Positions 12,408 through 19,529 of a stretch of 64,000 nt of DNA are shown here, one piece after another. Every line of letters starts with the position of its first letter. Position 1 is the stretch's first letter. Under the pieces are notes generated by a model. The model saw only the letters and a program-made list of their open reading frames with translations. It searched no databases and had not been told where the DNA came from. This DNA is from Halichondria panicea (Eukaryota; Porifera; Demospongiae; Suberitida; Halichondriidae), in contig NC_087389.1 of NCBI RefSeq assembly GCF_963675165.1, forward strand, positions 1,460,001-1,524,000, given 5' to 3'. The position numbers and the translations under genes are program-made.

Positions 12408-15400
12408 TACACAGGCGTATAGCGTACCAGGAGAGCTCAGGAACATTCTTAGTGGCCAGTTCTCGTATTGATACAACCAACAGCGACAACCCCGGTCGCT
12501 TTCAGCCAAGCCGAGAGAGGTGAGTCCTCCAATCAGATTTAAGCTTTGCCTTCATTTACTCCCCCCTTACTTCAGTGTGAGCACGTCATTGGGAAATCTC
12601 ACAGTGGGTGTGGCTCCAGATGGATTGGCTGCACCTCTTCCAGACATATCCGGAGAGGTTGAAGTATTCTCATTGATACTCTATGATCAGAATTCGTTTG
12701 AAGGTGAGGTCAATTTTATTGCCATATTTTAATTTATCCATCTCCCCCCCCCCCCCCTCTCAGCAATCCATGGCTACCAGCTGTGCCCGATGGAGCATGC
12801 TCTGAGCATCACCTCGTGTCCACTGGGGGCGGGGGATTCTCAACAGGTTTATTACATTGTGGGAACAGCTTTCGTTAATCACATGGAGAGGGAACCCACC
12901 CAGGGAAGGGTGCTCGTGCTGGAGGTCACTGAAGGTCAGTTGCCTGTACACTTAATTCTTAACCCCTGTGTAAGCAGCAGCGTTGAAGCTTTGAAACAGC
13001 CATAACTTTGGTTCCGTTGGTCCAATAATGTTAATTTTATGATTTTCTGAAAGCTTAAAGGAGCTCGTTCAGATGGTATGCTCAAATCCCAAATTTTGGA
13101 ATGGGCTATAATTTCCTACCATGGGATATATAATTATAGCCTATAGTATTTTGTCAAAACAGGGCCAACATAGACTTTTAATTTTAACACACCATCTGAA
13201 ATGCCTCTCTAAGCTACATGTGTATCAGAAAATTTTAACGTGATTGGACCAACGGCTAAAGTTATGGCCGTTTCTTTAATTAACGTTATGTATATGTATA
13301 CGAGACATTATTGTCTAAAGAAGTAGTTTTGTAGAGTTTATAAAGACGCTTGGTGGCATGTACTGTATGTTATGTAATTCCCCTCAGGGCGAATATTGCG
13401 ACTGATTCACGAGCAGCTTCGTGACGGGGCAGTGTATCAGGTGGTGTCGTTTGGGGGACAGCTGGTCATCTCTGTCAACAGTCTGGTCTCCGTGGCATCT
13501 TGGAGTGAGGACTCATTGACTCTCTCTGAAGAGGCAAAGTACACAAACAACATTCTCTCTCTCTTTGTTAAGACCAAGGGAGACTTTATATTGGTGAGTA
13601 GTGAAGACCCCCCCCCCCCCACATTGTCACAACAGAAAATGTTGCCTTTGTTGCAGATGCAGTGTACTATAAATGTATGTAGAAACAGCAAATAAAGTCA
13701 TCCCGTACATATGTACATGTAAAACCAGCTAAGTAGATTCTGTTTCTCATCAGCCACAACTGGCGCTGATGAGAAACAAGGAATCACTTTGCCTGGCCCA
13801 ATTTATTATACACATTATGTAGTTTATAATATTCAAACAATGCAAGCCCCTCTCCCATATCCCCAGGTGGGTGACCTCATGCGATCATTGAAGCTCCTCC
13901 GCTTCACTGTGGATGGAGTCAAGAGCTCTCTAACGGAGATAGCACTCGATGTGAACATGAATCCCTCCTTCCTGTCGGCCATAGAGATGCTGGACGACGA
14001 GAATTACATCGGAGCTGACGGTAGACACATCTTCACCTGTCAGAAAAACACGTACGTAAAAATGGACACTCTTGTGATAGTGTTTGAACTCCTTGAACAT
14101 TCATTATAGCGACAGCTAGTATATTAAAGTATGTATATTGTATATAGAGCAGCATTCCCTTTAATATATTGTAATTGCATCTGAAATTCTCGTTTGATTA
14201 TGGGAATGGATGGATGCCTTTTTTTTAATAGCAGACAATTGCATTTTAGTATGACCTATAATCAGCAGTTGTTACCCCCCCCCCCCCCCCCATCCCGCTC
14301 AATACAGTGAGGCAGCTGTGGAACAGGACATGCTGTACATGTCTCAACCATCTCGTATCTACATTGGAGACAACGTGAATGTGTTTGGTAGAGGTGAGGG
14401 ATCTGAGGTTGTGGGTTAGAGCTAGGTACATGTGTTTGGTAGAGGTGAGGGATCTGAGGTTGTGGGTTAGAGCTAGGTACATGTGTTTGAATCTTGACCA
14501 TGCACCTGTCATGTGTGTACAGGCTCTCTGGTGATGGAGCATCCTGGCTCTGGCCCCTCCCCCATTCAGGGAAAGCCCCTGTTATTTGGCACTGTTCACG
14601 GGGCGATCGGTCTCATTGGACATCTCACTCGAGATACGTTCTCCCTCCTCTCCAAGCTACAAGATAACATGGCCAAGGTGGTGACTAGTGTGGGGAGCAT
14701 AGAGCACAGTGTGTATCCTCTCAACAGCTACAAGGAGATTGTTGACCATTAATTATCAATTATTATATTAAAGTTTCCTTGACAATCTTGTGTGATCAGA
14801 TATCGATCATTTGCCAATGATCACAAGACGAAGGTGGCGGAAGGCTTCATTGATGGAGACCTAGTGGAGAGATTCCTTGACTTGTCTCAAGCACAGATGA
14901 ACGACATTGTTGCAGGAATCAAGGTAAACACAAAGCTCGTTACGAACTAGCTACTATTGTATAATTACAGTTTTGTGTAACTCTATATCAATATTGAGTG
15001 TGCTGTCTGCCCTTTGATAATAGAGAATGTGCTTGAGAACTGAGGAAGAATCGTCTATGCATGTCATGGTGTCCTGCTTAATCTACATTACATACCGTCA
15101 AGAGTTTATAAATGAGAGAGTATCGAACGTAGGCATACTGTGTATCAGTATGCGGAGAGTAACGTGACTTCCTGTATCTGTCACAAGCTTAGAATTTGAC
15201 ACTGTCCAATCCAAGTGTGGGTGATGTAATCTATAATACTCTCTCCTCTATTATAAACTCTTAATACCGTACACGAATGACTTTTCAGCTGAGAGTTAAT
15301 TGGGACTCTTAATTGTCTTTATTTTCTTTGGTATATTATGCAGACTATGGACGCCCAGGGACAGGAAGTGGATGCCCAAATCGATGATGTCATTAAACTA

Positions 15401-15687: not shown

Positions 15688-17350
15688 TCAGTCTTTTGCA
15701 TCCCTTTCTTTCATGTGGGAGTAATCAGGGGGGACTAATGCGAGGGGCGGGGGACGTAGCGAGGAGAGGACAGGCATCAGCGACGCTATGTCCGTTTGGA
15801 AGGAGGAGGGGAGGAGGGAAGTGGGTGTGGCCTTGTCGCTCTGCAGGGATGGAGTGTACAGTGGATGAGATGTGTAGAGCTGCGTCTATAGTACATGAGT
15901 GCATATTATATTGCATTGTGTAACCACCTCAAGAAACAGTTGGATTGGAAAATTAATGCCTATAGACACAGTGACTGAAACTGAAACTGACCTTTTGCTC
16001 CTCTGATCCTCCTAATTTGTATGCCCCAAGATCCACCTCCTCGTAGCCGGCCGAGGACATCCTCACATCGTACTGCTCGGGAGGTGTAGTGGGCGGGGCC
16101 ATGGTGGTGGTTGTGGTGGTGGGTGGTGGGTCTGGTTGATGTAGACAGGTCTGAATGAGGGCCTTCCCAGCCTCTGAGGTGATCATGGGTTGTAACTTGG
16201 GTGTGGCAAAGGTGTACACATGACCTGTCTCTGAGGCAACCATCAGCATCACCTGTGGATACAAACAATCTCCATTAATGGTATTGTAATGTTGCTAGGA
16301 GACTACTCTACATACCGCAGATAATAAACACAAGTGTACACAATCTTATTATCTTACTTAGCCACAACAAACATGTTGAGAGCTAATCGACAAAGCAGCG
16401 GAATAATAATAATTTACAAAAATGTCTACACTCACCTGCGTGCCAGTCAGTGTGCTCAACTCGTACGCTTTCTTCATAATGTTCGACTTTCGCTTTGAGA
16501 ATGTTGTGTATCGTCTCAGCTTGTTCTTAATGTACTTCATGGGTATCTTGACACGCCCTCGAGTCTTCTTGCCCGGGGCTGGTTTAGGCTTTGGTTTGCC
16601 TGCGTCCTCGTCACTATCGCTGACCTCTGATCCTACCCCCTCGGCTGACGGCTGCTCGTCACGTGACTACAAACAATAGATAGAGAGTTATATACATGTA
16701 CACAGTGCATCTAAGACATATGTACAGTACATACCATGCACAAACTCTCAGTACAACATAAAACAGGGAGTCCTAATGTTACTGACAGTAAGGGTCTCCC
16801 AAGTACAATGTACAGTACACATACAGTAGTATGCCCTTTTCCTCTTTCCCCCTCTCTCCATTGAATTCAACAGTTACTGTAATAATTATTGTACGATTAT
16901 TGTACTGATACTGGAACACAAACTACTATTGAAACTCCTCCCCTCTACACACTCACGCTTGAGCCGGGTCCATCTGCTTGTGAAGTGAGGAACTGAGTGG
17001 CCAGATCCGACTGACTATACGCCACACTGGAACTTGAGGTGAGGTAACCTTCCCCGTACACTGGGGATCTCAACATGGCGTCGTGGGTGTGTCCATTCTT
17101 AGGAGGGAGGGCAGTCTGGTCATGTACAGTGTGGGGTGGGTTGAGGAGCATTGCTGCTTGTGCCATTGTCAGGTTGTTAAAATATTCAGAAGCATGCTGT
17201 TCGCTCATCTGAAGAGCAGCTGAACTTGGGGAGATGGCAACCTGCAGTATGGAGAGAGAGAATGAAAACTCAGCCTCTAGATTTTCTCTACTCTACATGT
17301 ATTCTCTTTAAACCGAAACCTTATCTTCTCAAAGATATAGAAATACAGTA

Positions 17351-17386
<36 letters not shown>

Positions 17387-18560
17387 CACACACACACATC
17401 ATTGTCAAGTGTACAATACACAACAATGTAGTATAGTATAAGCTAGTAGTACTGTCAACCTCGGTATACACATAACAATGCAACACAAGTGAAGTGCACT
17501 ATGAGCAACAACACTCACCAACACTTGATGAAGTTCCCCACAGTGAATCTCCAATATTCCGCCAGCTTTCAACATTTCCTCCTGCTCCGGAGAGACGGGT
17601 AGCACCTCCTCCCTCACCACCGTCGCCAGGCAACAAACCAGCTCCACCTCTTTGGACAATTGTGGGTAGACCATCTCGACGTGACAGCTTTCTTTCTTAG
17701 ACACCTTCACTAGTTGTATCGAAGGCCGTGAAATCATCAAGAACCCACCAAACCAGTCCATGAATTGAGCGAGTTGGCCAACGGTGAGCTTGGAGAAATT
17801 CTCATCAACTTTTAAGACGAGCTCACAGAATTCTGATTGTGATGGTGGCTCGTAATAGGAAGGACACTCCAACATGTTTCGTTTCGAGAATTCATTGAAT
17901 TGAGTCTTATACTGTTCAAGTTTTGCTTTGTCTGATTCCGAGCCGAGCTTGTTGATAAGTGTATCGAGTAGCGAGTAGTTGAAGAAAGAAGTGAGAGAGG
18001 AGACAAATTGTACCAGTTGTGCGTGAGTGTTGGCTTCTTTGAGAGTGGACAGCTGGTGGGAAAGGAGTGGGGTGTGTGCGTGAGGGGGTAAGAAAGCTTC
18101 GATACCCTGGAGCAGCTGAGAAATAGTATCAACGGGAACACGACGATTAGTTAGCGACTTCAACACAGACGATTCTAAAGTCGAGAACAAGCCGGATATC
18201 TGCTGGTGTTCGAGACAAAGCTTTCCGATTCGAATCAGCCGGTTGGAATCAGAGACACCGTCCATATCGAGGTTAGGGAGAGCCCCTAAGAGAGAAGGGG
18301 AGGGCTTAGGGCAACCTTTCTTGAGGAAAGTGCTGACAGTGCAGTTGCCACAGTCGCAGAGTGTCGACAAGTGAGCTTCGTCGATGGCAACAGAGTGTCC
18401 ATTCTGACTCTTGTCCGAGACTTGTGCTTTCGATCGCTTCTGCCTCTTGGAAGAACTGGGTAGCACTAATTGAGAGAAAGAACTGAATGTAATATATAGG
18501 GTCACACTTAAACAGCTATTTGAATAGAAACTTGGGTACTGATCACTTACAATCTGTCAT
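15688..18560 (-). CDS. SRF: SRF-type MADS-box transcription factor with an extra 319-residue N-terminal domain
   Basis: Six exons (18560-18551, 18465-17519, 17241-16957, 16666-16436, 16252-15992, 15885-15688) close in frame to about 643 residues. Residues about 450-540 are a clear SRF MADS box plus SAM extension: TRGRVKIPMKYIKNKLRRYT, MKKAYELSTLTGTQ, MVASETGHVYTFATPKLQPM, then a Pro/Thr-rich tail with SSAGYEEVDL. SRF binds CArG boxes and controls immediate-early and cytoskeletal genes. Residues 1-319 are foreign to other SRFs: a basic start, a C-D-C-G-N-C-T-V cluster (40-47), GCPKP (54-58), then helical sequence including SFFNYSLLDTLINKLG. I remember similar regions in many sponge proteins of unknown function. 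Phase 0 joins at exon 2 to 3 make a fusion likely. An alternative is two genes, with SRF starting at the ATG at 17208. Confidence 0.7.
17353..17399. repeat. CA microsatellite in the intron between the N-terminal domain and SRF exons
   Basis: (CA)n interrupted once (aacacac), inside the 277-bp intron 17242-17518. Confidence 0.85.
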
Positions 18561-18844: not shown

Positions 18845-19529
18845 ATGATAATGGACTTCTCCTACCAGAAAACTGTTATTAAAGATATTAGAACACTAAA
18901 GCCAGGTACGTAGTAGATATATACATGTCGTCAAACCACGAACCAAATGCCTTTCTTTCCTCCTACGTACATGTACAGGCTCCCACGTTAGAGTGATTCG
19001 TATGTCAAGCTCCTCCAGCAAGCATGGCTTATATGACCACCACATGTTGGTAGCGAGTGTCCCGACCCATCGCAAGCAGCTGCATGTCATCCACTACTCC
19101 CAGGCTGGAGGGGAGGGTGCAGGATCACTCAATAGCTTCGGGTTCGGAGGCGGAGAGGAAGGGGGAGCAGCTGAAGTGCTCGAGGAAACTGTTACAATCT
19201 CTGATGGGGACACGATTGAGTTACTCGAGTACCCTGGCAATGTCAAGTGCTTTTCAGCTGAGGAATCAATTCAGAGAGCAAAGCAAAAACTTGGGGAGAA
19301 GAAGTACAGCGTAATCTCAAACAATTGCGAGAGTTTTGTGAACTGGGCCATCACGGATCAAGCTGTTAGCAAGCAAATTCAGGAGGGTTTATTGGGTACA
19401 GCGGCAGGTTTTGTGGCAGGTGCAGCTCGTGGCTATTTCAAGGAGGGTGGAAACTGGTCGACCGCCGTCAAGGAAGGTACCACCGGAGCCTCGAATGCAT
19501 TCTCACGCTACAGGGAAAACAGAAACTAG
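18845..19529 (+). CDS. LRAT/HRASLS-type (NlpC/P60 fold) protein
   Basis: Exons 18845-18905 and 18979-19529 give 203 residues. The LRAT-type catalytic set is visible: His in GLYDHHMLV, a second His in LHVIHYSQ, and the Cys in NNCESFVNWA (about residue 136), matching the N-C-E-H-F signature. The family contains acyltransferases and phospholipases A1/A2 (LRAT, PLAAT) and uncharacterised members; substrate cannot be told here. The tail is Gly/Ala-rich (GLLGTAAGFVAGAARGYF) and might contact membrane, though it is weakly hydrophobic for a transmembrane helix. Start uncertain: two or three upstream in-frame ATGs exist; 18845 was chosen because conserved-looking sequence begins there. Confidence 0.75.

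Follow-up and report, generated by a model that had tools for sequence, protein, structure and literature searches.

A second SRF gene of the sponge Halichondria panicea, very likely fused to an N-terminal module with a TRADD-N-like predicted fold

We analysed a 64,000-nucleotide stretch of the Halichondria panicea genome (NC_087389.1, positions 1,460,001 to 1,524,000; hereafter the window), in which a gene on the minus strand joins an N-terminal module to the transcription factor SRF. The fusion is very likely real, and the gene is a paralogue, one that probably arose within the sponge SRF group. On balance we favour reading it as a second sponge SRF with an exon-borne interaction unit from an adaptor-like family, which would relay immune or cell-death signals to SRF targets. 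The coding chain runs through six exons from 18560 to 15688 and yields 628 amino acids; all introns are GT-AG, and the donors of exons 2 to 5 are in phase 0. An earlier note, made from the window's letters, had traced this chain as closing in frame and had described exon 2 as ending at a phase-0 donor and encoding a C-x-C-x-x-C cluster with a GCPKP motif. These features, including the exon coordinates, were all confirmed, the cluster reading CDCGNC.

The evidence that carries the fusion came from a search of the whole chain against 5.8 billion proteins, in which 7,983 candidates were scored and 1,563 had E ≤ 0.001; the best 120 of the 1,563 were listed. The best match, P0001 (625 amino acids), was 70% identical over 100% of the chain and, among the matches listed, it alone spanned the entire chain. 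P0001 reads HQVM-AAVPQ through the 17519/17241 junction between exons 2 and 3, and its N-terminus, MTDLLPS, is the product of the 10-base exon 1 joined to exon 2. Its source contig (marked 'lgn', which we take to be the Logan read assemblies) is 2,020 bp long with a single frame. As ~1,880 bp of this are coding, no room is left for introns, which argues strongly for P0001 being a spliced transcript; its species is another one, differing by ~30% in this protein. When the P0001 module was compared with this genome, the window exon was the best place (E 7e-125, 68%) and the next place reached 33%, a gap that fits orthology. The earlier note had also envisaged transcripts terminating separately after 17519, an outcome contradicted by P0001 reading through the junction. 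P0001 was rejected as a retrocopy or assembly chimera, the exact exon order being kept with the 10-base exon included, and the 70% identity rules it out as the window's own gene.

A profile spanning the junction found six proteins, P0002 and P0121-P0125. The latter five, one of them on a contig of 1.43 Mb, are 89, 68, 68, 64 and 56% identical to exon 2. In 5/5 the similarity stops where the window's donor lies, and each continues with V (GTN); conservation of exon 2 is thus established, and their evidence covers exon 2 alone, not the downstream sequence. P0002 (98% identical) consists of exon 2 plus intron read-through and is likewise seen for exon 2 only. Scanning the genome contigs with exon-2 orthologues gave 25 pattern matches, 0 of them confirmed. 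Three points weigh against the fusion: P0001 is the single fused protein among the 120 matches listed, the nearest other SRFs (P0003-P0005) are without the module, and the transcript-type evidence is P0001 alone, from a species other than the window's. A rival reading is two adjoining genes, an adaptor that closes behind 17519 and an ordinary SRF that begins near 17208-17241, the chain then being an artefact of annotation, or P0001 a retrocopy or a chimera of assembly. It is favoured by P0001 being a single sequence from another species, by a Met at 17208 that could begin SRF alone, and by the exon 2 frame, which continues into the intron until a stop. We consider this highly improbable, given that P0001 crosses the junction and shares exon 1, that it has IPISD in place of the 17208 Met, that a separate SRF promoter would need the 277-bp intron or the interior of exon 2 as its site, and that the five other exon-2 orthologues stop matching at the same donor.

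Searching the whole 131-Mb genome for the SRF-TF family gave five places. One is the window gene; two fall in a gene on C7 that by eye is MEF2-like, and two in an SRF on C15 (L031, C15:5890983-5894060, minus strand). The C15 SRF has three exons and encodes 331 amino acids; its N-terminus is short (MLGDRTTHSM...) and its C-terminal tail long, as in P0003-P0005, of which P0005 is the Geodia cydonium SRF O62543. None of the 107 module places found in this genome lies near the C15 gene, the sole one of them on C15 being ~390 kb off. The earlier note had held the module to be missing from other SRFs; this stood for the C15 SRF and P0003-P0005, and P0001 has the module.

We placed the fused gene in a tree of 23 SRFs (21 database SRFs hand-picked from the 120 listed, with P0010, P0064 and P0100 left out, plus the two genes of this genome; 125 columns, midpoint-rooted; P0003 and C15_SRFA flagged as long branches). 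The window protein, P0001, the C15 SRF, the Geodia SRF, P0003 and P0004 lay on one side of a branch (100/97). Within these six the two fused proteins formed a pair (100/98), the placement of which was unsure (90/17). The canonical C15 gene and the tree together identify the fused gene as a duplicate. The earlier note's view that the master factor itself gained the module is not supported, and alteration of the genome's sole SRF was rejected in view of the C15 gene, which is without the module. By eye, a TATA-like ATATAAAAAC lies ~130 bp before the ATG of the C15 SRF, and its last intron holds a tandem repeat of ~35 bp units. The coding pieces of the MEF2-like MADS gene (L029/L033, C7:1487021-1490697) are parted by a long CACACA-type repeat, and the piece QITFSKRKAGLLKKAY occurs twice.

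The SRF part of the fused protein has a MADS box with a continuous SAM region, as SRF-type MADS proteins do. The best PDB matches of this core were SRF chains, aligned over 98 residues, with MEF2 chains far weaker, and the Pfam SRF-TF family matched P0001 at E 1.6e-19. Between the window protein and P0001, identity was 215/317 in the module, 62/95 in exon 3, 29/33 in exon 4 before the MADS box, 85/85 in the MADS/SAM core, 29/40 in the rest of exon 5 and 33/48 in exon 6. Because the core is unchanged in P0001, the fused SRF very likely retains DNA binding and dimerisation, as far as sequence can tell. Over the same 85 residues the core is identical to the C15 paralogue at 80 and to human SRF at 73. 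We found no long C-terminal transactivation region in the predicted protein, in which 50 amino acids follow the last intron vs 145 in the C15 paralogue.

Relatives of the module occur at 107 or more places in this genome at E ≤ 1e-3, some with SH2 or ankyrin frames downstream, so that the earlier note's mention of large sponge families holds for this genome. The family resembles immune and cell-death adaptor proteins. A CARD ahead of the cysteine cluster, predicted in the relative P0126, was not found in the SRF copy. Its members closest to the window copy, L009 and L010 on C7, are 32-33% identical to it. In a scan of 19/20 fetched regions (L010 left out as near-identical to L009), a phase-0 donor-like site was seen behind the L009 module, and the next downstream frame codes an SH2 domain. 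L009 (C7:82000-90500) and L010 (C7:107400-116000) lie ~25 kb apart near the contig start and represent either a recent tandem duplication or an assembly duplicate.

A structure model of the module predicts a helical, possibly Death-fold domain and an RRM-like domain with the beta-alpha-beta-beta-alpha-beta order of TRADD-N. For comparison we used a published account of TRADD-N proteins by Kaur et al. (eLife 10:e70394, 2021; PMC8195603). In that paper TRADD-N is an RRM-like domain whose turn reads Gly-Ser, the Ser being at times Cys. It counts 357 TRADD-N proteins of the NCOA6 clade in Amphimedon; in most of them TRADD-N stands behind one, two or three domains of Death-like type and is followed by variable partners (ankyrins, SH2). 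Pfam TRADD-like_N matched 4/20 relatives in the expected domain, all below the cut-off (P0136, E 0.0011; L021, 0.019; L015, 0.04; L023, 0.048), and NCOA6_TRADD-N matched P0136 at E 0.09.

Several results weigh against this assignment. The two structure models made are of moderate quality (mean predicted local distance difference test, pLDDT, 71.8 and 71.2), and with neither did Foldseek retrieve anything at E ≤ 0.001. In Pfam the window module matched no family even at E ≤ 10, PF13820 included; TRADD-N gave no match in 16/20 relatives, nor in P0001, L009, L017, L027 and L028 at E ≤ 0.1, and no profile match to it passed the curated cut-off. Searches of the whole genome gave no match to PF20694 at E ≤ 0.01 or to PF13820 at E ≤ 0.1; among the control genomes, 1/14 and 0/14, respectively, were matched. 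A PDB profile search with the module family returned only RNF25 (E 0.042 at best), and with the C-terminal domain it returned only RpfR at E 1.3 and not TRADD. TRADD-N entries were absent among the structural matches listed, which does not exclude a TRADD-N match.

These results leave some room, in our judgement not much, for a real fusion whose module represents a sponge family of its own, RRM-like in fold and with a role unrelated to immunity or cell death, the more so as folds of this kind are widespread: ribosomal S6, ACT, dystroglycan and Nup54 were all among the structural matches. However, the domain order, the sponge expansion and the downstream ankyrin and SH2 frames agree with the published TRADD-N account, as do the CARD of the modelled relative and, as regards its Cys in place of Ser, the turn motif, and the Pfam matches to TRADD-like_N, and once to NCOA6_TRADD-N, fall in the correct domain. 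The module, as modelled, thus best fits the published sponge 'Death-like + TRADD-N' unit. Because the Pfam support is weak and the window module has no match, we call it TRADD-N-like rather than a proven member. The family that the earlier note described as of unknown function is thereby narrowed to a TRADD-N-like unit, possibly with a Death-fold domain.

The turn between beta2 and beta3 of the RRM-like domain sets the SRF copy apart. It carries a 14-column insertion found in 0/10 aligned relatives, and 16 residues there (CHVEMVYPQLSKEVEL) are invariant in seven orthologues, the sole invariant run of five or more in the module. A run this long arose in 0/10,000 shufflings of the column states, which ignore the residue clustering normal in proteins. 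Among the fetched loci, the motif of this stretch that was searched for occurred nowhere but in the two containing the window gene. The turn Cys is conserved, and preceding it is Gly in 10/10 relatives vs Ser in 3/7, Asn in 3/7 and Arg in 1/7 of the SRF-type copies. In TRADD, the Ser of this turn contacts TRAF2, according to PMC8195603. These features of the insertion point to a partner that is specific and conserved.

Animal SRFs are usually regulated by partners docking on the MADS/SAM core. The earlier note had proposed a new input to SRF signalling, which we keep as a working hypothesis; the signalling role is what we infer from the protein's parts. The N-terminal unit, comprising the four-cysteine cluster, the possible Death-fold helical domain and the TRADD-N-like RRM fold, would have been taken from the large family. 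The protein may enter the nucleus via its basic N-terminus and bind CArG-type sites through the intact core, either as a homodimer or with canonical SRF. Beside the much shortened C-terminal tail, the module could then act as a switch, recruiting partners from the Death-like/TRADD-N network or sensing them, and immune or cell-death signals would thereby reach SRF target genes directly. With the CARD missing, it would be left to the helical and RRM-like parts to recruit. On C2, two RPEL motifs of a possible MRTF-type gene point to the usual MRTF route being present alongside the fused SRF.

The short C-terminus fits activation and repression alike, and we therefore considered that the fused SRF is mainly a brake or decoy, forming dimers with canonical SRF or contending for CArG sites without activating, its module tuning only stability or location. 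The intact core, so close to that of the canonical paralogue, would suit such a role, as would the reduced tail. We think this unlikely, as the module, with its invariant 16-residue stretch, is constrained beyond the needs of a mere cap. A switch driven by the module remains our preferred reading. Its bolder form is more doubtful than that reading: that a sponge lineage built a dedicated transcription-factor output of the Death-like/TRADD-N immune network, in which a duplicated SRF joined to an adaptor unit, its turn rebuilt and held invariant for one partner, would act on CArG genes without MRTF or TCF. A conserved SRF with a unit of the immune-adaptor type in its own chain would let innate signalling reach transcription through one protein, and the TRADD-N expansion would have captured a developmental transcription factor after its duplication, leaving the original intact. 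The fused SRF offers a single gene for testing the role of large sponge adaptor families.

Coordinates of the gene's exons and features are collected in Table 1. Four basic residues (K6, R7, K9, R10) and four cysteines (C36, C38, C41, C51) of exon 2 showed no variation in six aligned sequences. About 340 bp upstream of exon 1, a divergent plus-strand frame (18903-19526) encodes an LRAT domain (Pfam E 1.5e-10), and a promoter shared with the fused SRF is possible; an Rft-1 gene lies beyond it. On the other flank is a convergent CPSF_A-type gene, presumably DDB1-like. A ~50-bp unit in tandem duplicate was seen by eye in its region, at about 14375-14485.

Table 1. Exons and features of the fused SRF gene (positions in the window)
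Feature	Position	Strand	Details
Exon 1	18560-18551	minus	10 coding bases ATGACAGATT, then GTAAGT; codes MTD and first base of L4
Exon 2	18465-17519	minus	947 nt; N-terminal module, residues 4-319; orthologues P0001, P0002, P0121-P0125
Exon 3	17241-16957	minus	linker; EYFNNLT.AQAAMLLNPPHTVHD kept in P0001
Exon 4	16666-16436	minus	first part of MADS box; Pfam SRF-TF E 3.4e-13 (exon 4 alone)
Exon 5	16252-15992	minus	remainder of MADS box and SAM region
Exon 6	15840-15688	minus	short C-terminus, 50 amino acids
MADS/SAM core, 85 residues	16130-16567	minus	split by intron 16435-16253
Intron at disputed junction, 277 bp	17242-17518	minus	GT...CAG; holds TG repeat
Basic patch KRQKRSK, possible nuclear localisation signal	18428-18448	minus	alignment of 6 sequences
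Four-cysteine cluster CxCxxC...GCPKP, possible metal site	18302-18358	minus	alignment of 6 sequences
Predicted RRM/ferredoxin-like domain, TRADD-N-like, exon-2 residues 210-311	17531-17836	minus	structure model and structural alignment; Pfam TRADD-like_N below cut-off in some relatives
CHVEMVYPQLSKEVEL, 16 residues, beta2-beta3 turn insertion	17639-17686	minus	invariant in 7 orthologues

That the TRADD-N/Death-like group has expanded and fused promiscuously is already known, and the SRF fusion is a new architecture of known parts. No TRADD-N/SRF fusion was found in a literature search, which did not extend to supplements, bioRxiv or the majority of subscription papers; PMC8195603 contains in its main text neither 'SRF' nor 'MADS' (0 occurrences each), and the consulted portions of a survey of sponge NLRs (PMC12909245) mention neither TRADD nor SRF. 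Sponge MRTF, possibly with SRF, has been linked to contractile tissue (PMC9287330).

Like the canonical SRFs (human, PDB 1k6o/1hbx; Geodia O62543; C15), the fused protein has a MADS/SAM core, and it differs from them in its N-terminal module of ~320 residues, where theirs is short, and in its shorter C-terminal tail. The fused and C15 genes both have an intron after a Lys behind the core, whereas the intron inside the MADS box lies at different sites, TGTQ-V in the fused gene and KK-AYEL in C15. In NCOA6, as in the window protein, a TRADD-N-type domain occurs in a nuclear transcription protein, as described in PMC8195603, although NCOA6 is a coactivator and not a MADS protein, and the window module has no detectable PF13820 match. 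Compared with L009 and L010, the window module leads into SRF, whereas the next frame of L009 is SH2. In design the window protein also resembles the NCOA6-clade Death-like + TRADD-N proteins of Amphimedon: a predicted helical, possibly Death-fold unit precedes an RRM-like domain with Cys at the beta2-beta3 turn, and a constant N-terminal unit meets a variable C-terminal partner in a large sponge expansion. Unlike those proteins, the window copy is without a CARD, carries the 14-column turn insertion and ends in a complete SRF.
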